A DNA stretch of 64,000 nt, taken from contig MGTV01000037.1 in the NCBI GenBank assembly GCA_001799635.1, positions 62,001-126,000 of the forward strand. The letters run 5' to 3'. The position numbers were made by a program, and so were the translations under genes. The notes beneath the pieces were generated by a model. That model saw nothing but the letters and a program-made list of their open reading frames with translations, did no database searches and was not told where the DNA came from. Below, piece by piece: positions 1,394 to 40,173 of the stretch. The stretch comes from Elusimicrobia bacterium GWA2_62_23 (GTDB lineage: Bacteria; Elusimicrobiota; Elusimicrobia; Elusimicrobiales; UBA9959). The stretch's first letter is position 1, and every line of letters begins with the position of its first letter.

Positions 1394-1410
1394 GGTTCCC
1401 CCGGGCCCCC

Positions 1411-2271: not shown

Positions 2272-3269
2272 TACTCGGGGAACCCCACGCGCGAAGGCGG
2301 CCAGTAGGTGAACCAGGCCGTGCCTTTTATATTGGCTTCCGGCACCGGGCCCCAGTAGCGGGAATCGCAGGAGCGGTCGCGGTTGTCGCCCATCACCAGG
2401 TAGCTGCCCTCGGGCACCGTCACCGGGCCGAAATTATCGCGGATGTATTCCGAGAACATCTTGCCGAGCATCCGGTTCTGCCAGAAAGCCTGGTAATCGG
2501 CCGGCGCCAGCCGGCCGGTGCCGGCCGGGTAGCGGCCCGGGTCCAGGTACTGGGCGTAAGGCTCGTCCTTGACCGGCTCGTTGTTGACGAAAACCTTTCC
2601 GCCGCGCACCTCGAACTTATCGCCGGGCATGCCGATCACGCGCTTGATGAAATCCTTGCCGTACTGGCTGCCGCCGCACTGGAACTCGCGAGGATCTTCC
2701 GAAGGGAAACGGAACACCACGATGTCCCCGCGCTTCACCTTGCGGAACTTCAGGAACTTCTTCTGCGTGTAAGGCACGCGGAAGCCGTAAATGAACTTGT
2801 TCACGAACAGGTGGTCGCCTATCAGGAAAGTGCGCTCCATGGAACCGGAGGGGATCTTGAAGGCCTGGATGAACAGGTACATCACCACGGAGGCCAGCAG
2901 CACCGCCGAGAAGACGGTCTCGGACCATTCCATGTCCTTCTTGATCTCCTGGTTCTGGCCGTCCTTGATCACGGCCTTGCCGGCGCGGCCGCGCCAGTAC
3001 GCGTAGGCGGCGCCGCCCAGGCCGGCCAGCAGCCCATAGGCCAGCTGGCGCCAGCTGAAGAGCATGGTGGTCACCACGTCCCCGCGGCGGTTGTCCAGGC
3101 TCACCGAGAGCAGCAGCATCCCTATGAAGGCGACCAGCCCGGCGAACAGGGCGTGCCAGCCGCGGGTGAACTTGGTGTCGGCCTTGAACCTGCCCTTCTC
3201 GCTGAAATGATGCGAGAAGAACAAATGCACGCCCATCAGGATGCCTACCCAGAAAAGTTTTTCTTCCAT
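2271..3269 (-). CDS. lepB: Signal peptidase I
   Basis: 332 aa; IPSGSMERTFLIGDHLFVNKF, GDIVVFRFP, DFIKRVIGMPGD and MGDNRDRSCDSRYWGPV motifs. Confidence 0.93.
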   Translation of the reverse strand: MEEKLFWVGILMGVHLFFSHHFSEKGRFKADTKFTRGWHALFAGLVAFIGMLLLSVSLDNRRGDVVTTMLFSWRQLAYGLLAGLGGAAYAYWRGRAGKAVIKDGQNQEIKKDMEWSETVFSAVLLASVVMYLFIQAFKIPSGSMERTFLIGDHLFVNKFIYGFRVPYTQKKFLKFRKVKRGDIVVFRFPSEDPREFQCGGSQYGKDFIKRVIGMPGDKFEVRGGKVFVNNEPVKDEPYAQYLDPGRYPAGTGRLAPADYQAFWQNRMLGKMFSEYIRDNFGPVTVPEGSYLVMGDNRDRSCDSRYWGPVPEANIKGTAWFTYWPPSRVGFPE

Positions 3270-3282
3270 TGTTGCGGCTCCT

Positions 3283-26300: not shown

Positions 26301-29300
26301 CAGTTGAAGGTAGCCGAAGAGGGGCCTATGTAGGTGAAGCCCGCGGCCACCGGCGGATAGGCCAGCAGTGTTGCGGTGCCGGCCGCCGTGGTATAGGCGG
26401 TAGTGATCCCGTTATTGCCCACCGCCGCTACACGGAAGTAATAAGTGGCGTCGGGGTTCAGGCCCGAAGAGGAGAAGAACAGGTCATAGGTTTCGGAAAG
26501 CGTGGCGGCCGCGCCGCCGGGGGCCAACGGATCCGGCGCCGTGGAAACAGCCACGCTGTAGCGGGTGCGCGGGAAGGGATTGCCTTCCGCCGACCAGTTG
26601 AAGGCGGCCGCGTACGGTCCCACGCCGGTGAAGCCGGCCGCGGCCGGCGCCCGGGCCGGAGTGGTGGTGGAACGCGAAATGGTATAGGCCGTCAGCACGC
26701 CGTCCTTGTTCACGCCGGCCACGCGGAAGTAATAAGCGGTATTGGCGTCCAGGCCGGCGGAGCTCAGCCAGGTGTTGTAGGTGTCGGAACTGCTCACCAC
26801 GGCGCCCGCCGGGACCAGCGGGTTGTAGGCGGTGGAGACCAGCACGCGGTAGCGCGTACCCGGGTCGGCGTTGCCGTTGGCGGACCAGTTGAACCGCGCC
26901 GAGTTGTAGTCCACGTCGGCGAAGGAGAGATAAACCGGCGCCTTGGCCAGCAGCGTAGCCGCGGCCGGATACTGGAACCAGGGGCCGGAGACCTCGTCGC
27001 CATTGGCCCGGACGAACAGGTAATACACCGTGTCAGCCGCCAGCGCCGGGCTGAAGACCGCCGCGGCGGCCGCGCCGTTGCCCACGGTGACGCTGGAGGC
27101 GTAGATGGCCGTCGGCGGGTTGTCCGGGGCGAGCGAGGCCGCCAGGGTGTAGCCGGTGGCGCCGCCCACCAGCGACCAGGAAGCCGCTATGGAGGAAACG
27201 AACACCCCTGTTACGGCGCCCTCGGCCGGAGTGCCCAACTGGCCTATCGCCAGGGTAACACCGCTCAGCGCGGCGTAGGCCGTATAAATACCGTTATTGT
27301 TGACCGCCGCGGCCTTGAAGTAATGAGTCTTGTTCGATTCCAGGCCGGCGGTGGTCAGGAAGAGGTCGTAAACATAATGAGAGGTCACGGCCGCGCCGCC
27401 GGGCACCTGCGGGTCCGGCGCGGTGGAGACCAGCACGCGGTACAAGGTGCCGTCGCGGTTGCCGTCTGCGTACCAGTTGAGCTGCAGCGCGTGCGTGGCC
27501 TCGCCGGTGATGTAGAGGCCGGCCGGCTGGGCGGCCAGCGTGGAGGTGCCGGCGGCCGTGCTGTAAGCGGTGGGCACACCGTTGTTATTAAGACCGGCCA
27601 CGCGGAAATAATGGGTGGTATTGGCCGGCAGACTTGCCAGGTTCAGCGAGGAGCTGTAGGTATCGGACGAGGTGACCGCCGCCCCGGTGGGAGCGAGCGG
27701 GTCCGCGGCGGTGGAGGCCAGCACGCGGTAACGCGTGCCGGGGGGATTGCCGCCGGAAGTCCATGAGAACACCATGGAGCCGGTGGAAACCCCGGAGAAC
27801 CCGCCCGCCGCCGGTGCGTAACCCAGCAACGTGGAGGTACCGGCGGCGGCCGTGTAGGCGGTGAGCACCCCGCTCTTGCCCACGCCGGCCACGCGGAAAT
27901 AATGGGTGGTATTGGCCGCCAGGCCCGAAGAACTCAGGTAGGTATTGTAAGTGTCCGACGAGGTCACCGCCGCCCCGGCCGGCGCGCCAGGGTCTATAGC
28001 GGTGGAGACCAGCACGCGGTAGCGCGTGCCTGGGTCCGCGTTGCCGCCCGCCGTCCAATCAAAGGTCAGCGCGCCCGCTTCTACGGCGGCGAAGCCGGCG
28101 GCCAGCGGCGGGTAGGCCAGCGGCGTGGCGGTGGCGACGGCGGCCGTGTAGGCGCTGGCGGAGCCGTTATGGCCTATGGCCGCCGCGCGGAAATAATAAG
28201 TGGTATCGGCATCCAGGCCCGTAAAGACCGCCGGACCGGAGTAGGCGTCGGAATAGGTCGTAAAAAGGCCCTGCGGGTCCAGCGGGTCCGGCGCCAGCGA
28301 AGCGTAGACGCGGTACAGCGTGCCGGCAGGATTGCCGCCGGAGGTCCAGTTGAAACCGGCCTCCGACGCGATCACGCCCGAGAAGCCGGAGAAGGCCGGC
28401 GGCGCGGCATTGGTGGCCATACCCGAGGCCGCCGCGTAGGCGGTGGGCACGCCGCCCTTGTTGAGGCCGGCCACGCGGAAATAATAGGTGGTATTGGCCG
28501 CCAGGACCGCGGAACTCAGCCAGGTGTTATAGGTGTCCGAAGAGGTCACCACTGCGCCCGCGGGAGCCGCCGGGTCCGCCGCCGTGGAGGCCAGCACGCG
28601 GTAATGCGTGCCGGCCGGATTGCCTCCGGAAGTCCAGTTGAACTTAAGCGAAGCGGCGGAAACTTCGGTGAAAGCCGCGGGCTGCGGCACATAAGGCAGC
28701 AGCGTGGCTACTCCCATGGGCGCCGTGTAGGCGGTAAGCGCGCCGCCCTTGCCAAGGCCGGCCGCGCGGAAATAATAGGTAGTGTCCGGCGCCAGCCCGG
28801 CGGAAGAAAGGGAAAGGCTGTAGGTGTCGTGGGCCGAAACCGCGGCCACGCCCGGATTGGCAGGGTCCGGCGCGGTGGAGACCAGCACCCGGAACATGGT
28901 GCCCGGATAAGCGTTGCCGTTGGCAGACCAGGAGAAGGTAGCAGAATCGGTCTCCACGCCGGTTATGGCGGCTCCGGCCGGCGGATAGGCCAGCAGCGTA
29001 TAAGTGGCCGGGTAGGCCTCCCAGGAACTTGAAGCATCGGGCCCATTGGTGCGGACAAAGAGGTAGTAAAGCGTATCCGGCGCCAGGGCGGGCGTATTCA
29101 GGGTGGCGCCTGCCGTATTATGCACCGTGCTGGAAACATAAATATCGGCCGGAGGGTTCAGGGAACTGACGGACGCGGCCAGAGTATAACCGGTAGCGCC
29201 CTCCACCAGCGACCAGGAGCCCGAAGCCGCCGCAGCGGTAACGCCGCTCAGCGCGCCCAGGGCCGGCCGGGCCGGCGCCAGCGGCTCGGCCAGCTGCACC

Positions 29301-32300
29301 CAGGCGTCGCCGCTCACGCCGGGACTGGCGCCGCCGAGGGTGGCGGTGACGTTATAACCTGTCGCCAGCGTCGCGCCGTTTGCGTCGTCTATATGCCAGC
29401 GCACGGCCAGCCTGTCGCCGTTGGAGAGAGCTGTGGACGCCGGAGTTTTACCCCAGTTCTGCAATTGCAACAGGGAACTGGAAACCTCATTGCGGGCCAG
29501 GACCACTGAGGAGATGACGGACTGTATGGCCCCGGAACTATCGGCGCGCAGCAGTTCGGCCGTGATGGTGGCGTTGGCCCGGAAGCTGCTCTCCCTCGCC
29601 CAGAGGTTAAAGATGACGTTGCCGGCGATAGTGAGATCGTCGAGCGGCGGAGAATACCAGGTCACTGCGCTGCCGCCGGCCGCCTCGGTGAACTGGGTCG
29701 TGACCAGGGGCGGGGTAGTGGGACCGGCGAAGGTGTTTTTGGTATAGGTGACCACCGCGGAACCGGCGGCCCGGGTCAGGTACCTGGAATTGACCGCGTC
29801 CACCGGGGTGACAGAATCCTGGAAATACAGCTTGGTGGCGGCGGCGTACAGCGTGACGGTGGACTGCGCCGCCGTGTAAGCTGTGATCACGCCGTCGTTA
29901 TTGCGGGCCGCCACGCGGCAGTAATAGGTGGTCTGCGTAGCCAGCCCGGAGAGAAGCAGGTTCAACTCTTCCGTCTCGCCGGTGAGCACGTCCGCGCCGG
30001 AAGGGTTCAGCGGATCGGCCGCGGTGGAGGCCGCCACCAGGTAGACGGTGTCCGGGTAGACATTGTTTCCCGCCGTCCAGTTGAGGCGTATGGAACCGTA
30101 AGTGACGTCGCTGAAACCGGAGAAGACCGGCGCCGCGGCCAGCGTGGAGGTGGAAGCCGCCGCCGAATAGTCCCAGGCGGCGCCGTTGTTGTTGAGCCCG
30201 GCCGCGCGGAAATAATAGCGAGTGTTGCCGGACAGACCGGAGGTGGAGAGCGAGAGGTTGTAAGTGTCCGAGGAGGTGACCGCTGCCCCGTCGGGCGAGG
30301 CCGGGTCCGGCGCGGTAGAGACCAGCACCCGGTAGCGCAGGCCGCCGGGCAGGGAGCCGGCGGTCCAGCCGAAGGTTATGGCGCCGCTGCCCATACCCGA
30401 GAAACCGGAGAAGACCGGCGCGCCCGAGAGCAGCGTGGAGGTGCCTTGCGGCGCGCTGTAGGCGGAAGCCACCCCGTCATGGTTCACGGCGGCCACCCTG
30501 AAATAGTAGGTGGTGTTGGCGGAGAGCCCCGCGGAGGAGGCGCCGAGCTCATAAACATCGGAATATGTGACCGCGGCCCCGCCCGGGACCAGCGGGTTGG
30601 GGGCGGTGGAAACGGCCACCCGGTACCCGGACCCGGCCGGGTTGCCGTTGGCCGTCCAGCCGAAAGTGAGGTTCTCCGGGGTGAGACCGGAGAAGCCGGC
30701 CGCCAGCGGCGCATTAGCCAGCGTTGAGGTGGACTGCAGCGCCGAATAAGAAGTGAGCACCCCGTTATTATTCACGCCGGCTACGCGGAAATAATGGACG
30801 GTGTTGGCCGCCAGGCCCGCGGTAGCCAGGAACAGGTCGTAGGTGTCGTAAACGCCGGCGCCCGGCGCGTCGCGCGGGTCGCCGCCGGCCGCGGCTATCA
30901 CGCGGTAGCGGGTCCCGTCCGGATTACCGTTCCCCACCCAGTTAAACTTCATGCCGCCTTCGGTCACCTCGCTGAAACCGGCCGAGACCGGGTCGAAGGC
31001 CAGCAGCGTGGAAGTGCCGGCAGCGGCCGTGTAGGCTGTGAGCGCACCGGCCACCCCTACTCCGGCCACCCGGAAGTAGTAGGTTGTATTAACGCTGAGC
31101 CCGGCCGAGGTGAGGAACAGCTCGTAGGTGTCGGTAACGGTGGCCGCGGCGCCGGCCGGGGCGTTAGGGTCAGGCGCGGTGGAGACGGCCACCCGGTACA
31201 GCGTTCCGTCGGGGTTGCCGCCGTCCGTCCAGTTAAAGCGCAGGCTGTCGGCGGCCACACTGGTGAAACCGGAGAAGACCGGAGCCCCCGTCAGCGTGGT
31301 AGCCGTGCTCTGGGCCGAGATATAAGCCGAGACGGCCCCAACGGAGTTCACCGCCGCGGCCCTGAAGTAGTAGAAAGTATCCGTGGTCAGCCCGGCGGTG
31401 GTCAGGAACAGGTTATAGGTGTCGGCGACGGTGACGGCCGCGCCGGCCGGAGAGAGCGGGTCCGGCGCCGTTGAGACCGCCACACGGTACAGCGTGCCGG
31501 GGGCGTTGCCGTTGGCCGTCCAATCCAGACGCGCCGAAGCGGAACCCACCTCGCTGAAACCGGAGAAAGCCGGCGCCGCGGCCAGGGTCACCGCGTCGGC
31601 CGGTTCGGTGTAGTCGGTTTCCAGCCCGCCCTTGCCCAGCGCCCCCACGCGGGTAAAATAACGGGTGTCAGAGTTCAGCCCGGGGAAGTCGTGATAGAGG
31701 CCCGTCACTTCGGCCGAGAAGACCGGGTCCCCTTCCGGGTTGAGCGGGTCCGGCGACTCCGACAGCAGCACGCGGTAGACGGCGTCGGCGGCGTTGCCGT
31801 TGGCCGTCCAATTGACGCGCAGCCCGGCGGCGCCTATATCCGTGAAAGCGGAGAACAGCGGCATATTGGGCAGCGTGGCCGAACCTATGGCGGCGGTATA
31901 GGCCGTGGCCAGGCCGTCCTTGTTGAGGCCAGCCACCCTGTAATAGTAGGTGGTATCAGCCGCCAGCCCTGAGGCGTACAGCGACAGGTTATATGTGTCG
32001 GAGGATACCGCCACCGCTCCGCCCGGCGCCAGCGGGTCCGGCGCGGTGGACACCAGCACCCGGTACATGGTGCCGCCAGGGTTGCCGCCGCCGCTCCAGC
32101 CGAAGAGCATGGAATCGGTGGAAAGCCCCGACAGGGCCGGGACCGACGGCGCGAACTGCAGGCGCGTGGCCGCGCCCGGGTAAGCGTACCAGCCGCCGGC
32201 CACGTTGGCCGCGCCGGCGCGCACAAAGAGATAGTAGACCGTGTCAGGCGCCAGCGCCGGGTTGAGGACGGCCGCGCTCACGGTGCCGTTGCCCACGGTC

Positions 32301-33955
32301 TGGCTGGAGGCATAGACGGAGACAGGGGGGTTGGCCGGGGAAAGCGAAGCGGCCAGCACATACCCCGTGGCCCCGCTCACCAGCGACCAGGAAGCCGTAA
32401 CCGAGGTGACGAAGACGCCGGTAACCGAGCCGGAGGCCGGGGAACCTAGCTCGCCCAGGCTCAGGGTCTTCTCGGTGACGGCGGCGGCATAGGCCGTCGC
32501 TACGCCATTGTGGTTCACGGCCGCGGCGCGGAAATAATAATCGGTATACGGGTCCAGGCCGGCGGTACTAAGATAGAGGGAGTAGGTTTCGTGGTTAGTG
32601 ACCGTCGCGCCGGCGGGCGAGAGCGGGTTAGTCGCGGTGGAGACCGCCACCCGGTACAGCGTACCGTCGGAGTTGCCGGCAGCGTCCCAGTTAAGCTGGA
32701 GGACGTCCTCAGTGACTCCGGTGAAGTAGAAGCCGGACGGCTGCAGCGCCAGCGTGGCGGTGGAGGCCGCGGCGCTATAGGCCGTGTACTGGCCGCCCAG
32801 GCCCGCCGCGGCGGCCCTGAAATAATAGGTGGTATTGCCCGCAAGCCCCGCCGTGGCGAGCGAGAGGGCGTAGGTAGAGGAGGAGGTGACTACCGCGCCG
32901 TCTGGCGCGGCCGGGTCCGGCGCGGTGGAGACCAGCACCTGGTACAGGGTGCCGGCCGGGTTGCCGTTCTGGCCCCAGCTGAAAACCATGGACGCCGCGT
33001 CCACTGCGGAGAAACCGGCCGGGGCCGGGATCCTGGCCAGGGTAGCCGCGCCTTGCGGCGGGAAATAATAACTCACGGTATTGCCGACGGCGGCCAGCGC
33101 GGCCACGCGGAAATAGTAGGTGGTATTGGCGGCAAGGCCGGCGGTGCTCAGCGAGGCGTTATAGGTGTCGGAAGAGGACACCGCGGCGCCCGCCGGGGCC
33201 ATGGGGTCCGGCGCGGTGGAGACCAGCACCCGGTAACGGGAACCCGGCGCGTTGCCGGAAGCGGTCCAGGAAATATCCACAGCACTTTCCGTTATCCCGG
33301 AAAATGCCGTAAAAGACGGCGAGTACAAACGCGCCTGCGCCGTAGTACCGTTGGAGAGATAGCCCCAGCCGTCCCAGGCCGCCCGCGCCTTTATGGCGAA
33401 ATAATAGGTGCCCCCGCCCACAAGTCCGGAGAGAACGAGCTGCTCCTGCTGGCCGAAAGCTGACGGCGAAGGTACCGTGATAAAGTCGGTTGCGGAGCGC
33501 GCCAGCAGGAACTGCGCTTCGCCGATGGCCGGTGAACCTTCCGGGTAGGTGGAATAACGCAGCTCGTAGGCGGCCGCGGTGCCGGTGGAGCCGTCCGCTT
33601 TGGGGGCGGTCCAGGCCAGCGCCAGGCCGCCGTCGGAAGTCCCGCCGGAGGCGGCCAGGTTCAGAATGGTCTCCGGCCAGGCGGCCAGGTTGCCGAAGCC
33701 GGGCTGCAGCGTATAATTGTCGGAAGTGTAGGCCGCCGTCCCGGCTTCCCCCAGCACCGTCAGGCTGTTATGGCTGGCGGAAGCGGCCGAGGAACCGCCG
33801 GCGTCCACCGCGGCCGGGTGCAGGTCCTGGGTGGGCCCGGAGAAAGAGCCGGCCGCGGCGTGAGCGGGGAATAAAAGGGCAAGGCAGAGCCAGGCAGGCA
33901 GAATGCCGGCCGGCAGGCCGCGGCGCGCGGCGCTAAGCCCTGACCTTATGTTCAT
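20315..33955 (-). CDS. Giant (4546 aa) secreted multi-FN3 protein with lamin-tail-like domains and a C-terminal PQQ-like propeller
   Basis: Single uninterrupted ORF; signal peptide; about 27 FN3-like modules; LNEIYASGAVGEDWVEFYN and LNEIAYGAADRQFIELYN lamin-tail starts; C-terminal FGCDDGYIYAFDADTGARRAGWP. Confidence 0.88.
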   Translation of the reverse strand: MNIRSGLSAARRGLPAGILPAWLCLALLFPAHAAAGSFSGPTQDLHPAAVDAGGSSAASASHNSLTVLGEAGTAAYTSDNYTLQPGFGNLAAWPETILNLAASGGTSDGGLALAWTAPKADGSTGTAAAYELRYSTYPEGSPAIGEAQFLLARSATDFITVPSPSAFGQQEQLVLSGLVGGGTYYFAIKARAAWDGWGYLSNGTTAQARLYSPSFTAFSGITESAVDISWTASGNAPGSRYRVLVSTAPDPMAPAGAAVSSSDTYNASLSTAGLAANTTYYFRVAALAAVGNTVSYYFPPQGAATLARIPAPAGFSAVDAASMVFSWGQNGNPAGTLYQVLVSTAPDPAAPDGAVVTSSSTYALSLATAGLAGNTTYYFRAAAAGLGGQYTAYSAAASTATLALQPSGFYFTGVTEDVLQLNWDAAGNSDGTLYRVAVSTATNPLSPAGATVTNHETYSLYLSTAGLDPYTDYYFRAAAVNHNGVATAYAAAVTEKTLSLGELGSPASGSVTGVFVTSVTASWSLVSGATGYVLAASLSPANPPVSVYASSQTVGNGTVSAAVLNPALAPDTVYYLFVRAGAANVAGGWYAYPGAATRLQFAPSVPALSGLSTDSMLFGWSGGGNPGGTMYRVLVSTAPDPLAPGGAVAVSSDTYNLSLYASGLAADTTYYYRVAGLNKDGLATAYTAAIGSATLPNMPLFSAFTDIGAAGLRVNWTANGNAADAVYRVLLSESPDPLNPEGDPVFSAEVTGLYHDFPGLNSDTRYFTRVGALGKGGLETDYTEPADAVTLAAAPAFSGFSEVGSASARLDWTANGNAPGTLYRVAVSTAPDPLSPAGAAVTVADTYNLFLTTAGLTTDTFYYFRAAAVNSVGAVSAYISAQSTATTLTGAPVFSGFTSVAADSLRFNWTDGGNPDGTLYRVAVSTAPDPNAPAGAAATVTDTYELFLTSAGLSVNTTYYFRVAGVGVAGALTAYTAAAGTSTLLAFDPVSAGFSEVTEGGMKFNWVGNGNPDGTRYRVIAAAGGDPRDAPGAGVYDTYDLFLATAGLAANTVHYFRVAGVNNNGVLTSYSALQSTSTLANAPLAAGFSGLTPENLTFGWTANGNPAGSGYRVAVSTAPNPLVPGGAAVTYSDVYELGASSAGLSANTTYYFRVAAVNHDGVASAYSAPQGTSTLLSGAPVFSGFSGMGSGAITFGWTAGSLPGGLRYRVLVSTAPDPASPDGAAVTSSDTYNLSLSTSGLSGNTRYYFRAAGLNNNGAAWDYSAAASTSTLAAAPVFSGFSDVTYGSIRLNWTAGNNVYPDTVYLVAASTAADPLNPSGADVLTGETEELNLLLSGLATQTTYYCRVAARNNDGVITAYTAAQSTVTLYAAATKLYFQDSVTPVDAVNSRYLTRAAGSAVVTYTKNTFAGPTTPPLVTTQFTEAAGGSAVTWYSPPLDDLTIAGNVIFNLWARESSFRANATITAELLRADSSGAIQSVISSVVLARNEVSSSLLQLQNWGKTPASTALSNGDRLAVRWHIDDANGATLATGYNVTATLGGASPGVSGDAWVQLAEPLAPARPALGALSGVTAAAASGSWSLVEGATGYTLAASVSSLNPPADIYVSSTVHNTAGATLNTPALAPDTLYYLFVRTNGPDASSSWEAYPATYTLLAYPPAGAAITGVETDSATFSWSANGNAYPGTMFRVLVSTAPDPANPGVAAVSAHDTYSLSLSSAGLAPDTTYYFRAAGLGKGGALTAYTAPMGVATLLPYVPQPAAFTEVSAASLKFNWTSGGNPAGTHYRVLASTAADPAAPAGAVVTSSDTYNTWLSSAVLAANTTYYFRVAGLNKGGVPTAYAAASGMATNAAPPAFSGFSGVIASEAGFNWTSGGNPAGTLYRVYASLAPDPLDPQGLFTTYSDAYSGPAVFTGLDADTTYYFRAAAIGHNGSASAYTAAVATATPLAYPPLAAGFAAVEAGALTFDWTAGGNADPGTRYRVLVSTAIDPGAPAGAAVTSSDTYNTYLSSSGLAANTTHYFRVAGVGKSGVLTAYTAAAGTSTLLGYAPAAGGFSGVSTGSMVFSWTSGGNPPGTRYRVLASTAADPLAPTGAAVTSSDTYSSSLNLASLPANTTHYFRVAGLNNNGVPTAYSTAAGTSTLAAQPAGLYITGEATHALQLNWYADGNRDGTLYRVLVSTAPDPQVPGGAAVTSHYVYDLFLTTAGLESNKTHYFKAAAVNNNGIYTAYAALSGVTLAIGQLGTPAEGAVTGVFVSSIAASWSLVGGATGYTLAASLAPDNPPTAIYASSVTVGNGAAAAAVFSPALAADTVYYLFVRANGDEVSGPWFQYPAAATLLAKAPVYLSFADVDYNSARFNWSANGNADPGTRYRVLVSTAYNPLVPAGAVVSSSDTYNTWLSSAGLDANTAYYFRVAGVNKDGVLTAYTISRSTTTPARAPAAAGFTGVGPYAAAFNWSAEGNPFPRTRYSVAVSTAPDPLAPGGAAATLSETYDLFFSSSGLNPDATYYFRVAAVGNNGITTAYTTAAGTATLLAYPPVAAGFTYIGPSSATFNWSANGNAAGTLYRVYSSTAQDPLNPGGAVAVSSDTYNLYLSSAGLYANTTYYFTVAGRNRNGVSTAYTAAAGTATLANLPLTAVSTFSAVTNAGFTAAWEQNGNPVGTLYEVQVSSAQDFNPGVLYQVSAATAPEYGASYAFTDLVFSTTYYFRARAVNRNGLYTAYAGLGAVKTAGLQAPVAAPITQVSANSITAGWSLVAQATGYTLAASVNPGSEPAPVYASSSTAGLSALLSPLALNSTYYLFVRADGAGEASGWAVYPATATLANPPVSAASTFSAVGFDGFAVNWGANSNPLGSVSYQVEVSTAYDFNAGVTDRVSFSTAPAEGPAATFSGLNTDAYYYFRVRTAYHNGNFSEWVNLGVKKTLALPIVHAAGDGVILYGKAGTAMPQFRHYSAASNSFGATGDLEMGGNGSLFVIRTNPLTTKQEAVAGYVKDGTLHVLCTDGTNWTEEWTQAVGGNEATRRFDIAYETNSGDVMVLYSRNVSASGELGYRTKPGGAACGAANWTSETQLTAARTTGIVQWVKLASDRRATYDTLAALWADANSDLSAAVWTGSAWENEPAAALETNLERVTVSQDVEDFDLEFESLSGDLMAVWANAAGADGTNGVRYAVATWTGGSPLHTWGAVTTPPTFLDDATNLDLAANPASDAMIFASIGNAGSDLQIGYWSGAAWTNTANVDTTAQVPLAGTRLVSAVWLSSGAATRWAVAYNDAAATNIGWYYGTTGAPSAGADASPAPLFANPQKHYQLHQDPVNRDRAILAVSDNNSDLIVKRLVMTSVPAFTWSDAAGGAALETSLSSVTVGGHSFFFWPAPPETTYVQSAYKFFANADSTDVGTALAAQDTPGVILSSGAAFRLRPLLHIDQVDLAAGAESFKLQFAGRGDGTCAAPSGGNPAVYTDVGAATVIAFNNNTPADGAALTANAADPQHGAHVTVAQAYAESSPAATLALTARNRDAMWDFALKDNGMAAGTSYCFKLVRADGTDLNAYDIYPEAMLQPAVYLNEIYASGAVGEDWVEFYNNSASTVSLIGWKLDYVENTLDLGGTPITVWTAQASDVVNAYSTFTLTGLATDLVGGQSYHLKLMNNTGAIVDQAQWPVLGAGQSLARVTDGDPSFFWIDPSPTPGYGNSVSTDALKLNEIAYGAADRQFIELYNASPVSTRTLAGYALRNSVSSANGLAFKFTRKIYPLDYAVIDFSALSDDGYTFAGVFGPGGLAAAGDFLALENSTGSVVDWAVWQSGTAYTLYNYRAEQVSAGNFAPGGAAYSIARGPAEGADTGSDSADFSASAYATPVSRNNNAGTAAANTLVYPVNTSAPQFLAKTFPVTLDLGDSSGGAGNNILFQRTGGSADPESPHLYRLEDIGLDPASTAQQSAQQTGLTFYDQDGAPLVSSAVYRVTFNTDTGAASAPRIELGTVTYYAGVHGVSVSSSAPAWMNDASRAGVLKLQVANNNPAGFNPVQLATVAFSLYDSGLAPLTQQQARDLFEAVLLVADSASGLPGIYEPGIDASTLAYVPMNSILVDGNGLSTMTVGGGWLSAAAVPAASTGTFFIVLESTADASDRSPNVFRAGFSPVRATVLDGPGALAQEFAPAAAANTEAVTLISPARPPAGTAWPYVLPAAAATESPVSYYTNEGDTAVSSAVYVASADGYLRAIKKDGTFKWSYATSPLSPIRTSPNAVVEGTDVVIYFANDNGDVYKVRDDETAAGLVWKRSVGAPVRSNVMCTDLLCTGPNIYFGVNDNTVRCLAKADGLPCSGWTFSAAVTAGVSGTISIDDRDTIKTGWIGLEDGKVVALQTADGASPTSFITGGAIKSSPYLDARDASPNNVIYFTSTDGKLYARVSSNLSALPSGWIDDYPASGAAPIYTSPSVSFSGAKYIFFGDDAGRLHKVDTTGASAPGWPLQAGGAIRSGPIWVPAGVGSGVAQNYIYFGCDDGYIYAFDADTGARRAGWPVATGGPVRADPVVDLDDRTIKVGSTDGKTYTLYIGP
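25200..33660 (-). repeat. Tandem FN3-encoding repeat array (about 280-300 bp per unit, roughly 27 units by eye, interrupted near 29290-29850)
   Basis: Recurring ...FNWTANGNPAGTLYRVLVSTAPDPLAPAGAAVTSSDTYNLSLSTAGLAANTTYYFRVAGVNNNGV.TAYTAA.GTSTL in the translation. Confidence 0.85.
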
Positions 33956-33982: not shown

Positions 33983-35170
33983 TTATATACCGCCAGCCTT
34001 CTGCGCTATCACATAACTGCCTTTCTGCACGGTCAGGCTGCCGCTGGTATTGGGCGCCCATTGCAGCGTCACATTGCCGGCGGTGCTGGCCGTTATCCAG
34101 CCCTGAAGATAAACATTAAAAGGGATGGCGCTGCCGCTTATCACGGTATTGGTCATAGCCGTGGGAGCGGCGTCGCAGTCGGTGGCGTCGTCCTGCAGGA
34201 AAGCCGTGCCGGCCGGCTCCGAGCCGGACTGCAGCACCCGGCAGGTCCAGCCTATCGCGCCCAGTATGGCTGCCTTCCAGTCGGGCGTGGCGCTGTTATT
34301 ATTGTTGACCAGCAGCCGGAACTCGAATACCCAGGTCTCGCCGGCCGCCACGGCGAAGGAGAGATCGTCGTCGTTCTGCAGGGTAGTGCCACTGGGCACG
34401 TTCTCGTCCGCCTCTTTTATTACGAATTTCATGGTGGTGGCCGGCGCCCAGGAGGCGTCGCCGCGCAGGAACTGCGTGGCGGAGCCCGATGCTTTGGGGG
34501 TAAAACCGTGGCGCAGGGTGGAAACGTTGCCGGTGACCGTGTCGGAGAGGGACAGAACGTTCTCATAGGCGGAGGCTACGGCCAGCGAGGACACTATAAC
34601 ATTGGCTCCCAGCGTGCCGGTAACGGCCAGCTTGCTGATAGCTATGGCCGCGGCGGGGTTTATATCGGCGTTGCCTATTATACCGTCCACTATCTGGTTT
34701 TCATTGTTTATAGCCCCCACCGCCACCGAGGAGATCCGGAGCAGGGTCGAGCCGTCATTGTCCGTAATGGCGTCGGCTACCGAGGACTTGAAGCTGTAAG
34801 GCCCGGCGGTCAGGCGCTCACGCGGGCTCAGGGTTTCGCCGGCCACGGCTATCTCCAGGTAGCGCGCGTCCGAGGCGAAGACGGCGCCGTCTATTGCGGC
34901 CACCGCGCCAAGCTGCACGGCGAACACGCCGTTAGTCACGGTGACGGTCTGGTTCTCCGTCCACAGGCAGGGGTTGCCCACGGCGCAGGGCGCCGAGCAG
35001 GTGGCGGCCAGCGAGTTACAGATCTTGAAACTCATCAGGTAATCGCCGTTCCTGGGCAGTTTAGTGGAGTCCAGCAGCCGGCCCTGGAAATTCACCAGGC
35101 CCGGCACCGCGGCTTGCGCCGCGCCCCACCACAGGAGCGCGGTCATAATGGCGAGAGTGATCTTCTTCAT
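33983..35170 (-). CDS. Secreted protein with N-terminal 'VNFQGRL' domain, tail-fibre-like
   Basis: 395 aa; signal peptide MKKITLAIMTALLWWGAAQA; AVPGLVNFQGRLLDSTKLPRNGDYLMSFKIC; central STLRHGFTPKASGSATQFLRGDASW. Confidence 0.65.
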   Translation of the reverse strand: MKKITLAIMTALLWWGAAQAAVPGLVNFQGRLLDSTKLPRNGDYLMSFKICNSLAATCSAPCAVGNPCLWTENQTVTVTNGVFAVQLGAVAAIDGAVFASDARYLEIAVAGETLSPRERLTAGPYSFKSSVADAITDNDGSTLLRISSVAVGAINNENQIVDGIIGNADINPAAAIAISKLAVTGTLGANVIVSSLAVASAYENVLSLSDTVTGNVSTLRHGFTPKASGSATQFLRGDASWAPATTMKFVIKEADENVPSGTTLQNDDDLSFAVAAGETWVFEFRLLVNNNNSATPDWKAAILGAIGWTCRVLQSGSEPAGTAFLQDDATDCDAAPTAMTNTVISGSAIPFNVYLQGWITASTAGNVTLQWAPNTSGSLTVQKGSYVIAQKAGGI

Positions 35171-35229: not shown

Positions 35230-35676
35230 TTATTCTTCGGCCGCTCCCGTCAACGGCGATTCGCCCTTGGCTTTCCGCGCCCGCTCTTCTTTCTGCCTGT
35301 CCTCTTCGCGCATCATTTCTATGATGTCCTGCACGGTGAGGCCCACCAGCCAGTTGTTCACCTCTTCGCGCAGTTTCTTGTAAAGCCGGCCCGGGATCTC
35401 CTCGCGCTCCGGCGCCGGGGCGCCATTGAAAGTAAAAGCCTCCATCAGCGCCCACACGCTGATATCGTCCAGGTCCTTGCGCAGGCGATAACCCTTTCCT
35501 TTCAGGGACTCTACGAAACCGGCGTGCACCAGCGCCTGCAGCACCTTGTTGCAGTAGGGCGCCGGCAGGCCCTGGAACCTGGCTATATCCGCCACCTGGT
35601 TCCAACTGCCGCCATTATTGGCCCCCAGGTACTGCAGGCAGGCCAGGCCGTAGGCTAAAGTGCGGTTCATTCTCAT
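35230..35676 (-). CDS. Rrf2-family transcriptional regulator
   Basis: 148 aa; MNRTLAYGLACLQYLGAN...VADIARFQGLPAPYCNKVLQALVHAGFVESLKGKGYRLRKDLDDISVWALMEAF. Confidence 0.82.
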   Translation of the reverse strand: MRMNRTLAYGLACLQYLGANNGGSWNQVADIARFQGLPAPYCNKVLQALVHAGFVESLKGKGYRLRKDLDDISVWALMEAFTFNGAPAPEREEIPGRLYKKLREEVNNWLVGLTVQDIIEMMREEDRQKEERARKAKGESPLTGAAEE

Positions 35677-35758
35677 ACATAGTCGCCTGAAAGATCCGCT
35701 CCGACTTTTTTATCCAGTGACCAACAGCCATCGGACACTTTCTATCCGATGGCCGGGC

Positions 35759-35792
35759 AAAAAATAAACGGCGACCAGCGGCTTGCCGTTTA
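35759..35792 (-). terminator. Terminator-like hairpin plus U-tract, in the Rrf2 leader downstream of the radical SAM gene
   Basis: Minus strand taaacggc-(12 nt)-gccgtttattttttg; perfect 8-bp arms followed by T6. Confidence 0.55.
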
Positions 35793-35801
35793 GATATCAA
35801 T

Positions 35802-35829
35802 AGTATAGCAGGCCTAATACCGTAGTCAA
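35802..35829 (-). promoter_or_regulatory. Sigma-70-like promoter for the Rrf2-led operon
   Basis: Minus strand TTGACT - 16 nt - TATACT. Confidence 0.6.
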
Positions 35830-35850: not shown

Positions 35851-36888
35851 TTACAGGCCTGTAATTCTTCCCGGCCGGCGCGCCCGGGCCAGGTCACAGG
35901 CCGGGGTATTAGGGGCAAAAACATCCCCCTCCTCCACCAGGCTGACCCCCGGGCACCTGCTGCACCAGGCGGCGTCCGGGCAGCCGGCGCAGCCTTTTAA
36001 GTCTTTTTCGCCGGCCCGGCGCCATTTTTTAAGCCACCTCGAGCTTTTCCAGATGGCGGAGAAGGGACTGCGGGCCGGGTTGCCGAGTTTTACCGGCAGT
36101 TGCAGACAGGGGTAAAGTGCCCCGTCCGGGCCCAGCGCACACACATTGCGCCCCGCCCCGCAGAGGAGATCCATGGCCGGGGACGGTTCGGGCGGCGCCG
36201 CCTGGTCACGCCCGCCAAGCAGCTTTACGGCCAGTTTCATGTCCTTTTGCCCCAGGCGCAGCGGCAGCGCCGACTTGTCCCCGTCATTGGCGGCCGTAAT
36301 GACCGGGTCGAAAGCTATGCCGAATCCCTCGCGCCTGGCCAGGGCCCGAAGAAAAGCGGCCTGGGAGATGTTCGCCCGCGTTAAAGGCACTTTGATTTTC
36401 ACTTTTACCCCGGCCCGCTTCAACAGCCGCGCGGCCGCGAGACTCCCGCCATATGATCCCTTCAGCCCTGTCATCCCGTCGTGGCCCGCCGGCCGGCCGT
36501 AAAAACTTATTTCAAAAGCGGAGACCCCGGCTTTTTTCAGCGCCAGCGCCCGCCGCCGGTCCAGGCCGATGCCCGTGGAAAATATCCGCACGTCGAAATT
36601 ACGGTTTTTGGCAAAGGCGCAGAGCTCTTCCAGGTCAGGGCGCAGCAGCGGCTCGCCGCCGGTGAAGACCAGGTACAGGGCGCCGGCCGCGGCCAGTTGC
36701 GACAGCACCTTTTTCCACTGGGCCGAGGTCAATTCGTGCCCGGGCCTGGCGCGGCCGCGGGTCTCCGGCAGATAGCAATGCGCGCAGGCCAGCGGGCAGC
36801 GGCGCGTCAGCTCCACGGTAACGGAAACCGGGATATTTCGTTCGAGAGTGAGGAGGTTGAGCCTGGCAGAGGGCGAGGGTTCAGACAT
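35851..36888 (-). CDS. Radical SAM/SPASM peptide-maturase-like protein
   Basis: 345 aa; ELTRRCPLACAHCYLPETRGR (CxxxCxxC), YLVFTGGEPLLRPDLEEL; C-terminal CGAGRNVCALGPDGALYPCLQL...GCAGCPDAAWCSRCPG...PACD SPASM-like cysteines. Confidence 0.9.
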   Translation of the reverse strand: MSEPSPSARLNLLTLERNIPVSVTVELTRRCPLACAHCYLPETRGRARPGHELTSAQWKKVLSQLAAAGALYLVFTGGEPLLRPDLEELCAFAKNRNFDVRIFSTGIGLDRRRALALKKAGVSAFEISFYGRPAGHDGMTGLKGSYGGSLAAARLLKRAGVKVKIKVPLTRANISQAAFLRALARREGFGIAFDPVITAANDGDKSALPLRLGQKDMKLAVKLLGGRDQAAPPEPSPAMDLLCGAGRNVCALGPDGALYPCLQLPVKLGNPARSPFSAIWKSSRWLKKWRRAGEKDLKGCAGCPDAAWCSRCPGVSLVEEGDVFAPNTPACDLARARRPGRITGL

Positions 36889-37204
36889 TGAGCAGGCGGG
36901 AAAAAGTTCTGCGGCAGCGCGAGTAAACCAGGCCGGCCAGGCCGCGGGCGAGAAAATTATCGCCGGTCGCCCGGCCTCTCACGTTTTTCCAGGGCACCAG
37001 GTGCGGCTCAAGCCGGCCGGCATCGTCGGCCAGCCAGGCACCGCGGGAGGTGGTCCGCAGCACACGGTGCAGCAGCGTCCTGCCCTTGTAGGAATAGACG
37101 GCGCAATCTCCGGGGCTCGGCCGACCGTCGATCACGAAGGCCAGCCCCCCCGGCCTGAAGACCGGGAGCATGCTGGACCCTTCCAGGAGGAAAGCGCGGG
37201 CCAT
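36881..37204 (-). CDS. S26 signal-peptidase-like protein, ER/archaeal-type Ser-His
   Basis: 107 aa; FLLEGSSMLPVFRPGGLAFV (SxMxP) and GDCAVYSYKGRTLLHRVLRT (GD...HRVL). Confidence 0.75.
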   Translation of the reverse strand: MARAFLLEGSSMLPVFRPGGLAFVIDGRPSPGDCAVYSYKGRTLLHRVLRTTSRGAWLADDAGRLEPHLVPWKNVRGRATGDNFLARGLAGLVYSRCRRTFSRLLNV

Positions 37205-37206
37205 GA

Positions 37207-37344
37207 TCAGGAGAATTTCCTAAGCGTCTTGCAAGCCAGCTGGCTGATGGGGCCGGTAATACACTTGCCGCAGGCCAGGGCGGCGGTCTCAAAGACCTTC
37301 TCGGTCCTCATCTTCGGTTTTTCATACACTTTTTTCTTCTTCAT
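37207..37344 (-). CDS. Candidate 45-aa RiPP precursor peptide
   Basis: Translated by hand: MKKKKVYEKPKMRTEKVFETAALACGKCITGPISQLACKTLRKFS*. GGAGGG ribosome-binding site before ATG; 2-nt gap to the S26 gene. Below the apparent size cutoff of the supplied ORF track. Confidence 0.8.
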   Translation of the reverse strand: MKKKKVYEKPKMRTEKVFETAALACGKCITGPISQLACKTLRKFS

Positions 37345-37376
37345 TTTTCCCTCCATCGGGCGCGGGGCCGCGGCGG

Positions 37377-37625
37377 CTAGGCCAACAGGCCGGCGCCCTG
37401 CAGTTCACGCACAAAATCGCCGACGTCCGCCAGCGCGGCGGCCTCGCCAACCTCGAACTGCGCCGCCAGTTCCGCTGCTATCTCGGCCTGGCTCCTGTTC
37501 TTTGCCAGGCCCTCCCAGATCACGGCGGCCGGGCCGTTCAGTTCATGCAGGCGGGCTTTGCCCGCGTCCACCACGAATAATTCGCCCGCCACCCGGCGGT
37601 AAGCCAGCCCTTTCTTTATTTTCAT
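37377..37625 (-). CDS. PqqD-family peptide chaperone / RiPP recognition element
   Basis: 82 aa; AGELFVVDAGKARLHELNGPAAVIWEGLAKNRSQAEIAAELAAQFEVGEAAALADVGDFVRELQGAGLL. Confidence 0.88.
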   Translation of the reverse strand: MKIKKGLAYRRVAGELFVVDAGKARLHELNGPAAVIWEGLAKNRSQAEIAAELAAQFEVGEAAALADVGDFVRELQGAGLLA

Positions 37626-38419
37626 CCTATAAGCTCCAGAAAATCCGCGCTATCCTTGGAGAAACCCAGCCTGCGGGCGGGCACCGCCGCCAGCAGCCTG
37701 CCGGCCGCCAGCAGGGCGGCGGCCGAAACTTCCGCCGACCTCGAAAAATTGACCAGGCAGCGCATGACCGTCCTGAACGCTTCCCCCGGGGCACATGGCA
37801 GGACCGAAGTCGCCGCGGCTTTCTTCAGGAGAAAGATCCCTCCGAGGGGCCAGTTGGCCTGCCGGCCGCCCGCGCGCATCTCACCCCAGAAAGGCGAACC
37901 GTAGACCCGCCAGCCGCGCGGCCCGGGCCGCAGCAGGTTGATCTCGTCGCTTATCACCTCGGCTCCGGCCTTAAGGGCGAGCTTTGCCAGCGTGGATTTA
38001 CCCGCGCCGGACTTGCCGGGAAAAACGTAAGCCTTCCCCCCCAGCGCTATCCCGGAGGAATGGAGCATCAAGCCGCCGGACTCGAGCAGGTTCCAGCTTA
38101 TCAAAGAGCGCAAAAAGGCGTCCAGGCACTGCTCGTTGGGAGCCGCGGCGGCTTTTCCCCGCCCTGCCCCGCTGAAGATCTCCGCGTTAAAGTCGCCGCG
38201 CCTCAACTCCAGCCGCCCGGCCGCGCTTTCCACGTAGGGGCGGAACGGCTCGCGCCTGTTCGGCCCCTCCGAGACAGCCAGCTCCAGGCCCCGCCCAGGT
38301 CTCTCAATGAAGGGCGCGTAGCGGCGTCTCAAAATTGTAATGATACCAGCCGAATCTGATTTGAAATCAACTCCAAAGCCGGCAATGGCGACCCCCAGCG
38401 CGCCGCGGCTCACGGCCAT
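37622..38419 (-). CDS. HprK-like serine kinase of the RiPP/PqqD-associated type
   Basis: LMLHSSGIALGGKAYVFPGKSGAGKSTLAKLALKAGAEVISDEINLLRPGPRGWRVYGSPFWGE; ORF open to 38449, start at MAVSRG chosen. Confidence 0.85.
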   Translation of the reverse strand: MAVSRGALGVAIAGFGVDFKSDSAGIITILRRRYAPFIERPGRGLELAVSEGPNRREPFRPYVESAAGRLELRRGDFNAEIFSGAGRGKAAAAPNEQCLDAFLRSLISWNLLESGGLMLHSSGIALGGKAYVFPGKSGAGKSTLAKLALKAGAEVISDEINLLRPGPRGWRVYGSPFWGEMRAGGRQANWPLGGIFLLKKAAATSVLPCAPGEAFRTVMRCLVNFSRSAEVSAAALLAAGRLLAAVPARRLGFSKDSADFLELIG

Positions 38420-40173
38420 GCCGCCGCATTGGGAGCCTGCTCTTCCCATGACTCCTTGATCAATACCACGTTCAGCGTAGGCAGCTTCAGTTTGGCGTCA
38501 TAGAACACCATGGTGTTGCCTGCCCCGGAAACGTCCCCTTCCACCCACATGGCCCCGTAGACATCCGAGTCTCCGGTACGGTTAAAATCTCCCCCCACGT
38601 ACAGGAAGCCGTAAACTCCCAGGTCCGCCCCCAGCGGCCCGCCTTCGCAGGTCATGCCGCATGAGCCGAAAGTGTAGGTGGCGGCGTTACTGTGCAAACC
38701 CGTGTCCCCGGGATACTGATTAGTAGAAGAAGTATCTATTTTGCGGTATTCCTTCCAGGCGGCCGCCGGTACCGCCACGGGTCCGCCGGGGCTGAAATTG
38801 TCGCCGCCGGAGACACCCAGGTTGCCCCTGACTATAACAGTACCGCGCAGGCCGTTTTGGCCGGCCCAGTTAACATTATTGTCCCAATACCAGGTCAGGT
38901 CCTTATTGCGCAGCGTGGAATAATTGTAGATGTTATTAACGGAGCAATTGGTGCAGCCCGAGCCGCCGTAAGAGCAGGTGACCGGCCCGCCGTAATAGGC
39001 GGAGCTGCAGCAGTTCATGCCGCCAATGGTAGTGGTGGAAAGGCTGTTGGCGCAGACGCAGCTGCCGCCGCCGCCGTCGCTGTCGGAACAGCCGTTACCG
39101 GTAGTAATATAGGTAAAATCGCAGGGGCTGCCGGCGTCCGAACAACCGGAGCCGGTGCAGCGCTTGCTGCAAACGCAATTGGCGCCGGCGCCGTCGCTGT
39201 CCGTGCACCCGGCGCCGGTGCACAGTTTGCCGTAGCTGGTGCCGCTGCAGCTGCAGCTGGCGCCGGAATCCACGCAGGCGTAGCCGGCGCAGACATTATT
39301 GTCGCAGGAGCAGTTGGCCCCCGGGTCCGTGCAGGCGCTGCCCACCGCGTACTTGGTGCGGGTGCAGTCCGCGCCGGGGTCGGCGCAGGCGGAGCCTGCG
39401 CAGGGCGTATAGACCACGGTATAACTGTCCACCGCCACATCGTCGCAGTTCAGCGTGCCGGTGGCCGCGGCGGAGGCTTTCATGGTGGCAAAATCGAATT
39501 GCGGCAGCTCCGGCACGTCATAGTCGGACCACCACTCCACGCCGTCCGTATTGGACGGATTGAGGTCGCCGGTGGGGTCGAAAGGCCGGACTACCTGCTT
39601 GGAGAGCTTCCTGGGAAAACCGTTGGTGAGGCCGCCGCCCGACACGGTGATGTCCCCCATGGCCAGCACCGGCCCCCAATGCACCACCGAGGCCCCGGTG
39701 GCGCTCATGTTGGAACCGGTGATAATGGCCCCAAGCACGCTGGTATTGGTGTAAACGGCCTTGATAGAACGGGTCTCGGCGTTATTGGCGTTGCGCCCCT
39801 CGCCTATTATCGTGAGCTGGTCGGAGACGGGCCCGGAGCAGATATAGATCCGGTAGGAGCCGCCGGTCACATCGCGGTAGGTAACGTCAAAGTTGTAGCC
39901 CGGGATAGAACCGCCGGCCGCTATCAAGCCGTAGGTGGCGGTGGAACTTTTCACCTTCCAGTAGCCGCGGTCCACCGCGGTTTCCGCCAGGTTGAAGGCG
40001 GAACTGGAGGCCTGGTCCTTGGTAGAGATCTTGGTATCTTCCTGCACCCACTTGACCATTACCGGCACCACTATCATCAGGAACAGCATTATGACCAGGA
40101 CCGCGGGCAGGAGGAACCCCCGGCGTCGGCAGACCGGGAATATCCGGGCGGAAAAAATATTTTTAAAGTTCAT
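38410..40173 (-). CDS. PilX-like prepilin/pilus assembly protein with a Cys-rich insert
   Basis: 587 aa; RRRGFLLPAVLVIMLFLMIVVPVMVKWVQEDTK N-terminal helix; more than 20 Cys in the central region. Confidence 0.72.
   Translation of the reverse strand: MNFKNIFSARIFPVCRRRGFLLPAVLVIMLFLMIVVPVMVKWVQEDTKISTKDQASSSAFNLAETAVDRGYWKVKSSTATYGLIAAGGSIPGYNFDVTYRDVTGGSYRIYICSGPVSDQLTIIGEGRNANNAETRSIKAVYTNTSVLGAIITGSNMSATGASVVHWGPVLAMGDITVSGGGLTNGFPRKLSKQVVRPFDPTGDLNPSNTDGVEWWSDYDVPELPQFDFATMKASAAATGTLNCDDVAVDSYTVVYTPCAGSACADPGADCTRTKYAVGSACTDPGANCSCDNNVCAGYACVDSGASCSCSGTSYGKLCTGAGCTDSDGAGANCVCSKRCTGSGCSDAGSPCDFTYITTGNGCSDSDGGGGSCVCANSLSTTTIGGMNCCSSAYYGGPVTCSYGGSGCTNCSVNNIYNYSTLRNKDLTWYWDNNVNWAGQNGLRGTVIVRGNLGVSGGDNFSPGGPVAVPAAAWKEYRKIDTSSTNQYPGDTGLHSNAATYTFGSCGMTCEGGPLGADLGVYGFLYVGGDFNRTGDSDVYGAMWVEGDVSGAGNTMVFYDAKLKLPTLNVVLIKESWEEQAPNAAAWP

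Follow-up and report, generated by a model that had tools for sequence, protein, structure and literature searches.

A gene for a 45-aa peptide was found to be conserved in Elusimicrobiota together with a set of putative maturation genes. We propose that its product is made ribosomally as a precursor, matured by the enzymes of this cassette and then used as the dedicated partner of a giant exported beta-propeller protein; the chances of this reading as a whole we consider about even. The DNA analysed (the window) is a stretch of 64 000 nucleotides from Elusimicrobia bacterium GWA2_62_23. As to the function of the product, a dedicated partner is most likely, in the form of a subunit, a prosthetic peptide or an assembly factor. 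Because almost every genome with the peptide also carries a giant protein, the modified peptide probably serves the latter rather than being a natural product in its own right.

A small gene in a maturation cassette

A first-pass annotation of this DNA had described five tightly packed minus-strand genes, one of them a 45-aa ORF with a good ribosome-binding site, and had taken this ORF as the substrate of the neighbouring enzymes. All five were found where it had placed them, with the overlaps and the gap as claimed (4-nt overlap between the HprK-like and PqqD genes, 2-nt gap between the peptide ORF and the S26-type gene, 8-nt overlap between the latter and the radical SAM/SPASM gene), and both the ORF and its ribosome-binding site are present in the sequence:

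37622..38449 (-), HprK-like kinase, true start probably ~38419; NCBIfam HprK_rel_A 6e-8 and ScmC 5e-7, both below cut-off; PEPCK/HPr kinase-like fold
37377..37625 (-), PqqD-fold leader-binding protein (RRE); Pfam PqqD 2e-14; among solved structures, the family profile is closest to the lasso RRE TbiB1, 4e-17
37349..37354 (-), ribosome-binding site GGAGGG of the peptide gene, 4 nt ahead of its ATG; from sequence
37207..37344 (-), gene of the 45-aa precursor peptide, with its stop codon; conserved in 54/341 genomes
37273..37344 (-), predicted leader, residues 1-24 (KKKK-x-YxKPx[ILM]..EKVFETAALA); alignments of 37 + 32 copies, boundary inferred
37210..37272 (-), predicted core, residues 25-45 (CGKCITGPISQLACKTLRKFS); three Cys and terminal Ser conserved
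36881..37204 (-), S26-type peptidase (Ser-His) without N-terminal TM segment; family profile against SEC11 1.7e-8; confident model with signal-peptidase/LexA-type fold
35851..36888 (-), radical SAM/SPASM enzyme; Pfam Radical_SAM 6e-20, SPASM 6e-8; nearest solved structures SkfB and PqqE

The mechanical ORF call adds four N-terminal residues to the peptide (MEGK, ATG at 37356); since the ATG at 37344 is where its homologues start, this codon was used. The kinase probably starts at an internal ATG near 38419, because the first residues of the 38449 version are of low confidence in the structure model.

A profile search for the peptide matched 55 of the 341 Elusimicrobiota genomes, 54 of them with E ≤ 8e-9. 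The remaining match (G134, E = 0.001) was taken as chance, cassette genes being absent nearby. Outside the phylum, the peptide was found on one Armatimonadota contig. No confirmed match was obtained in viral contigs, and a viral origin was therefore dropped; nor did any known NCBIfam or Pfam precursor family match the window peptide. Identity within the window's family is 59-93%, and at 27/27 loci the peptide is the most conserved product of the five cassette genes. The annotation had held that its proposal would fall if homologous cassettes lacked a conserved small ORF at this position, or if substitutions there did not behave as coding. Neither was the case: the ORF is present at the same position and its substitution pattern is that of a coding sequence (pooled pN/pS = 0.21). 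The 45-aa ORF is a real gene, and its recurrence is far above chance.

The cassette occurs in two gene orders, HprK-PqqD-peptide-S26-rSAM in the window's family and HprK-PqqD-rSAM-peptide-S26 elsewhere. In one genome (G239) it is split, HprK-PqqD-rSAM and peptide-S26-giant lying on different contigs, with both halves retained; in another (G031) rSAM-Rrf2 lies apart from the remaining system genes. Peptide and HprK subfamily occur together in 51 genomes, one without the other in 3 and 4, and 283 have neither. With this co-occurrence, linkage in two gene orders and a YxxPx[ILM] motif beside a lasso-type RRE, the role of the peptide as substrate of the cassette enzymes, as first annotated, is well supported by sequence comparison, the chemistry remaining inferred. 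The general description of a RiPP system (short precursor gene, conserved leader, adjoining maturation genes) is met. An HD-domain gene precedes the cassette in most families other than the window's. A functional tie to the upstream pseudopilin operon is unsupported, the pseudopilin also being present in peptide-less genomes (P = 0.13).

Each enzyme carries the residues expected of its type. The kinase has the PEPCK/HPr-kinase fold, and its His, Walker-A Lys and acidic Asp-Glu pair are invariant in the alignment of homologues; the second acidic residue is Glu, not Asp. The peptidase has an S24/S26 fold in which the nucleophile is followed by Met and a His is conserved, and in the radical SAM/SPASM enzyme CxxxCxxC and the SPASM Cys are conserved.

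The 56 copies of the peptide that were read all have the motif YxxP in the leader, a small-Leu-small|C junction, three Cys and Ser as the last residue, with variable residues in between. The motif extends to YxxPx[ILMV] in nearly all copies, its spacing being off by one residue from that of lasso leaders. Small residues at -3 and -1 constitute the signal-peptidase rule. They are kept here at a junction whose gene adjoins one for an S26-type peptidase, which supports the annotated leader/core split at 24/25, an inferred boundary. The CxxC-x9-C spacing annotated for the core holds within the window's family, but the last spacing varies outside it. A lipoprotein reading of ALAC was rejected (Leu occupies -2 instead of -3, and in the charged leader there is no hydrophobic stretch). 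The peptide, with three Cys only, does not meet the six-Cys SCIFF ranthipeptide model (3/32 members match, best E = 0.012).

The giant exported protein and its control region

The peptide system extends to the giant beta-propeller protein and to Rrf2 as its regulator, which the first-pass annotation did not include and whose genes lie beyond its coordinates. In the window, this part of the system comprises:

35802..35829 (-), extended -10 promoter of the Rrf2 unit (TTGACT-N16-TATACT); consensus scan, conserved across the family's loci
35759..35790 (-), GC-rich hairpin and T run right behind the promoter, terminator- or attenuator-like; no Rfam match
35729..35751 (strand unassigned), palindrome CATCGGATAGAAAGTGTCCGATG, candidate Rrf2 operator; 16/32 genus genomes with one site each, reversed control 0
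35230..35676 (-), Rrf2-family regulator; Pfam Rrf2 2e-17; co-occurs with the peptide in the window's family (counts 32/4/2/21)
33983..35170 (-), 395-aa exported protein between the Rrf2 and giant genes; in some relatives only, with close copies in few loci and no Pfam match
20315..33955 (-), giant exported protein, 4546 aa, Fn3/Ig-like repeats; Pfam fn3 1e-100
20318..21817 (-), C-terminal PQQ_2/BamB-like beta-propeller, common to every cassette-linked giant that was examined; present in 52/341 genomes, of which 47 also have the peptide

A giant protein occupies the corresponding slot in most loci with sufficient downstream sequence, and the giant proteins of peptide-bearing genomes reach 4.5-10.5 thousand aa. 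An N-terminal RIKTVE-type domain proved too narrow as a marker, the shared part being the C-terminal propeller. Matches to the latter are bimodal (E ≤ 1e-98 for all but one fragment). Peptide and propeller are distributed as 47/7/5/282 genomes (both, peptide only, propeller only, neither), and co-occur even where unlinked. These counts are not phylogenetically independent; the genus-level table (23/2/2/73) is nevertheless equally strong, and unlinked pairs exist. The seven peptide-only and five propeller-only genomes are mostly fragmented drafts or carry other parts of the system, G012 and G235 being discordant without obviously being either. Three genomes from two families have an in-frame fusion of the S26 gene with the giant gene.

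In the window's family, the Rrf2 gene lies between the cassette and the giant gene, which is downstream of it; in most other families Rrf2 does not adjoin the cassette. The palindrome sits only at the Rrf2 promoter, at a single site per genome. Of the 20 loci in which both a promoter match and a T run were found, 19 have a stable hairpin ahead of the T run; an Rfam search of the Rrf2 leader revealed no known structured RNA.

Proposed maturation route and comparison with known systems

That the gene is real, that its residues are conserved and that the modules travel together is established; chemistry, cleavage, export and contact with the giant protein are inferred. The PqqD-type protein would bind the leader at YxKPx[ILM], as judged from the lasso-like motif and the RRE. 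The radical SAM/SPASM enzyme would act on the core in the region of the conserved Cys, with thioether formation as the most likely chemistry, an inference that could go either way. Phosphorylation of the C-terminal Ser45 by the HprK-like kinase, assisted by the RRE, is slightly favoured, and cleavage by the S26-type peptidase behind Ala24 (ALA|C), which would free the 21-residue core, is reasonably likely. Finally, the product would act on or within the exported giant protein, the gene for which, in the window's family, belongs to the presumed Rrf2-controlled unit adjoining the cassette; inferred from co-occurrence, this step leans towards the probable. Among the points that count against the scheme are the Asp-Glu of the kinase, where lasso kinases have Asp-Asp, the nucleophile of the S26-type peptidase, which is Ser in the window but Cys in several lineages, the one-residue offset of the leader spacing and the lack of a dedicated exporter in the cassette.

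The closest parallels for leader and kinase are lasso clusters with an HprK-like kinase (paeninodin, ThcoK/SyanK, BsfK; PMC10368454), which share the YxxPx[ILM] motif, a separate PqqD-fold RRE (TbiB1 being the best solved relative), the catalytic His/Lys/Ser/Asp and a Ser at the extreme C-terminus. The cassette kinase has the residues that BsfK requires. Phosphorylation by BsfK is accelerated by its RRE, and earlier lasso kinases phosphorylate the C-terminal Ser (PMC10368454). The cassette differs by its radical SAM enzyme and S26-type peptidase, and lasso ring residues are absent from its core, which has three Cys; no lasso B2 transglutaminase-like protease or asparagine-synthetase-like cyclase matched among the five cassette proteins or in the gene lists of related loci, to which that comparison was limited. 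The quinohemoprotein amine dehydrogenase gamma subunit (QhpC/QhpD/QhpE system) is likewise a small leader-bearing peptide with a thioether-forming radical SAM enzyme, a dedicated cytoplasmic leader protease and a larger exported complex as destination (PMC7876137), but there the protease (QhpE) is subtilisin-like, the subunit is ~9 kDa, an ABC exporter is present and kinase and giant protein are lacking.

PQQ biosynthesis (PqqA, PqqD, PqqE) also combines PqqD, a PqqE-like radical SAM/SPASM enzyme and a short precursor, and the cassette-linked giant ends in a PQQ_2/BamB-like propeller. There is no evidence of cofactor binding by this propeller, and PQQ-like propellers are often structural only; moreover, the core lacks the conserved Glu/Tyr pair, the cassette adds a kinase and an S26-type peptidase, and the NCBIfam cut-offs were not met (PqqE 121 versus 381, PqqD 22.4 versus 46 bits). 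The SynChlorMet cassette consists of an HprK-like protein, a PqqD-like protein and radical SAM/SPASM proteins. Ours has the same three types, but one radical SAM enzyme only, an additional S26-type peptidase and the coupling to a giant protein, and it fell below the cut-offs for SynChlorMet (ScmC 29.4 versus 125, ScmD 15.6 versus 100, ScmE/F 78.6 and 53.4 versus 400 bits), HPr-rel-A (kinase 32 versus 200, PqqD 25.2 versus 35 bits) and GeoRSP (radical SAM 101 versus 400, PqqD 20.8 versus 100 bits). No RiPP system combining HprK, PqqD and radical SAM was found in the literature, most subscription journals being outside our coverage.

Alternative explanations and significance

The composition of the locus (RRE, radical SAM, kinase, peptidase and short precursor) is that of a RiPP cluster, and the product might be secreted, as an antimicrobial or a signal between cells, and the giant protein a mere neighbour. 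We consider this unlikely: the core is near-invariant across the phylum, unlike most defensive products, and this extreme conservation, as far as sequences can tell, speaks against a secreted natural product of the ordinary kind; neither a dedicated exporter nor an immunity gene is present in the five-gene set; co-occurrence with the giant protein is strong, unlinked cases included; and viral contigs yielded no copy. No more probable is control of the giant-protein operon by the modified peptide as an internal signal, e.g. via Rrf2 and its candidate operator, the single palindrome. The position of Rrf2 between cassette and giant gene, its co-occurrence with the peptide in the window's family and the confinement of the operator-like site to its promoter would fit such a signal, but most other families have the HD-domain gene ahead of the cassette and no Rrf2 beside it, and regulators do not usually need so elaborate a ligand.

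Linkage and co-occurrence could also reflect nothing but vertical inheritance, given that the data come from one phylum and one Armatimonadota contig and that close genomes are not independent. This is a shade less probable again, as presence and absence are both seen within the window's family, both modules are retained through changes of order and splits, and the neighbouring pseudopilin gene fails to track the peptide. Least probable is an unmodified Cys-rich accessory that binds metal or Fe-S while the enzymes act elsewhere, e.g. on the giant protein; the CxxC with its third Cys, and weak, non-significant matches of single members to ferredoxin-type families, are in its favour, but metal binding needs no YxxP motif beside a lasso-type RRE, no peptidase-like junction and no conserved terminal Ser.

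The dedicated partner of the giant protein thus remains our preferred reading. Its widest form, a new class of modified peptide across the phylum with a thioether, a C-terminal phospho-Ser, signal-peptidase-type release and a role as cofactor-like subunit of exported beta-propeller giants of 4.5-10.5 thousand residues, is tentative and rather doubtful. If the partner reading is true, this would be a RiPP-like maturation whose product is a part or assembly factor of one of the largest exported bacterial proteins and not a secreted natural product. S26-type peptidases would be added to the known leader peptidases, and the near-invariant core would be a substrate for testing kinase and radical SAM chemistry together. 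RiPP chemistry would be joined to cell-surface biology, in a phylum with few cultured members.

The small gene and its cassette

Five tightly packed minus-strand genes had been described in the first-pass annotation, the shortest, encoding 45 aa, being proposed as a gene; the layout is as described and the gene status of the small ORF was borne out by homologues in relatives, codon-level constraint and phylum-wide profile matches. Below, G numbers denote genomes from a set of 341 Elusimicrobiota genomes and L numbers the loci or contig stretches read.

35851-38449 (-), cassette: HprK-like kinase, PqqD, 45-aa peptide, S26-type peptidase, radical SAM/SPASM
37207-37344 (-), peptide; residues 1-24 predicted leader, 25-45 predicted core
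35729-35829, upstream of Rrf2: promoter, promoter-proximal hairpin/T run, single-copy palindrome
35230-35676 (-), Rrf2 regulator
20315-33955 (-), giant exported protein, 4546 aa

The peptide (identity 59-93%) is present in most relatives within the family of the source genome, with a pooled pN/pS of 0.21 (666 pairs); compared with its four closest relatives, roughly half of the synonymous sites differ and 4-6% of the nonsynonymous ones. In 27/27 loci none of the other four cassette genes is as well conserved, and a profile search found the peptide in 54/341 genomes of the phylum (one chance-level match left out). A scan across bacteria and archaea, with each species represented by one genome, placed the window in an Elusimicrobiota genome (nearest relatives, Elusimicrobia MAGs) and found the peptide outside this phylum on one Armatimonadota contig only; the peptide scan depends on short conserved motifs, so that distant relatives may escape. 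All inferences are based on comparative genomics of mostly draft genomes from uncultured organisms.

The family consensus is MKKKKxYxKPx[IML]KTEKVFETAALA|CGKCxTGPxxQLACKTLKKxS. In a 32-row alignment, Y7, P10, E19, L23, C25, K27, C28, P32 and the terminal Ser are invariant phylum-wide, and every copy has the third Cys (its column is displaced in one row). The residue preceding this Ser is highly variable, so that constraint on the final position is not merely local. The leader carries a YxxPx[L/I/M] motif, as in lasso leaders. At the predicted leader/core junction, aligned copies have Ala/Ser/Thr at -3 and Ala/Gly at -1; signal peptidases require small residues at both positions, and the junction thus appears suited to such an enzyme, no cleavage having been observed.

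PqqD and the radical SAM/SPASM protein were identified directly by Pfam and NCBIfam. Single-sequence matches were weak for the kinase and the peptidase, and became clearer with profiles and predicted folds: the kinase model (pLDDT 93) matched PEPCK and HPr kinase, the peptidase model (pLDDT 95) the signal-peptidase/LexA clan and its profile SEC11. The nearest solved relative of the PqqD protein is the lasso RRE TbiB1; SkfB and PqqE are those closest to the radical SAM enzyme. The kinase retains the His, Lys and first Asp of the lasso HprK-like kinase, with Glu at the second acidic position. In the peptidase alignment the nucleophile precedes Met and the His is invariant. Several lineages display a natural Ser/Cys swap within this signal-peptidase fold (GGCM for GSSM), the His being kept throughout; L119, L120, L122, L128, L129, L130 and L133, and also L126 and L127, share or vary this site.

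Gene order and the Rrf2 unit

The order is HprK-PqqD-peptide-S26-rSAM in the window's family and HprK-PqqD-rSAM-peptide-S26 in others, usually with an HD-domain gene before and a giant exported protein after. This HD-domain protein (HD_5, ~370 aa; for example L119 2662-3813) lies directly before the kinase gene, sometimes overlapping it, in most families outside the window's (L117-L134). The cassette is split over contigs in G239 (HprK-PqqD-rSAM versus peptide-S26-giant), and in G031 rSAM and Rrf2 are apart from the remaining four. The cassette radical SAM enzyme separates clearly from the other members of that superfamily (E <= 1e-121 versus >= 1e-58; 20 genomes checked); no copy was detected in G008 or G004, peptide-bearing draft assemblies.

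Other arrangements were seen. L136 (G026, 63% complete) has HprK and PqqD at 1574-2664 without adjoining peptide, S26 or rSAM, possibly a decaying or rearranged cassette. L130 has, upstream of the cassette and a few genes away from it, a 507-aa ORF (8850-10373) whose N-terminus is PqqD-like. In one family an AAA ATPase gene, ExeA-like as judged by eye, directly follows the peptidase gene (L128 6561-7397, L129 6520-7356); in L129, where the contig reaches that far, it precedes the giant gene.

Within the family, Rrf2 and the peptide occur together in 32 genomes, singly in 4 and 2, and are both absent from 21. Upstream of Rrf2, most family loci have an extended -10 promoter directly followed by a hairpin and T run, and a palindrome (CATYGGAYA-N5-TRTCCRATG) found once per genome in 16/32 genus genomes, the reversed control never. 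The palindrome is, on sequence grounds, the obvious candidate for the Rrf2 operator and the hairpin could be an attenuator; the conserved region 35729-35829, without a match in Rfam, is possibly an attenuator plus operator.

The giant propeller protein

Downstream of the cassette, most loci of the window's family that extend far enough carry Rrf2 and, after it, a very large exported protein. The giants examined reach 10481 aa (in G324), against 4546 aa in the window, and differ at their N-termini; a C-terminal domain of ~500 residues, matching PQQ_2/BamB-type beta-propellers, is common to 11/11 examined. Its profile detected 52/341 genomes, all at E <= 1e-98 bar one extra fragment, and 47 of these 52 have the peptide. 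Among the remaining five, G237 and G039 have the HprK-like gene; in G010 a contig opens with Rrf2, upstream of the giant gene; and the other two are incomplete assemblies, G057 (68%) and G330 (89%, 340 contigs). Conversely, the profile search gave no propeller match in 7 peptide genomes, of which G006 and G244 possess the N-terminal part of a giant-type protein. Co-occurrence is strong (Fisher's test, p ~3e-44 over genomes and 3e-18 over genera), neither value being fully corrected for shared ancestry. Peptide and propeller modules are on separate contigs in G040, G043 and G056.

In G323, G327 and G328 the peptidase gene continues in frame into the giant gene. Long single ORFs joining the peptidase to a large exported protein were seen at L117 -2..3540, L118 6165-12137, L123 -2..3369 and L131 6069-8783, the partner being the RIKTVE giant in the first three and a different protein in L131; such fusion puts a signal-peptide-like segment inside one long ORF.

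The Armatimonadota contig has a PQQ-like propeller gene directly upstream of the peptide; this is weak support because such proteins are probably common in that phylum. Pseudopilin, propeller and peptide genes lie in a row there (L100 5378-8135), the contig ending just past the peptide. Whether this copy reflects transfer, ancient presence or misbinning is not resolved.

A putative maturation route

One lasso system has an HprK-like kinase whose phosphorylation reaction is accelerated by the RRE, and all earlier lasso kinases target a C-terminal Ser (PMC10368454). Given this precedent, the TbiB1-like RRE, the lasso-type leader motif and the kept kinase residues, the kinase is inferred to phosphorylate Ser45. 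The three conserved Cys make thioether formation the likeliest reaction of the radical SAM enzyme, its acceptor being unidentified; neither modification has been observed. The S26-type peptidase would be the natural candidate for the ALA|C cut. Absence of a description among open-licence papers is no proof of novelty. The closest documented parallel is offered by quinohemoprotein amine dehydrogenase, whose gamma subunit is made as a small peptide with a leader; QhpD crosslinks it, trimming takes place in the cytoplasm, and after export it becomes part of a larger enzyme (PMC7876137); the likeness is one of analogy, not membership. Here, no export or contact having been observed, the mature product would then be expected to serve the giant exported protein.
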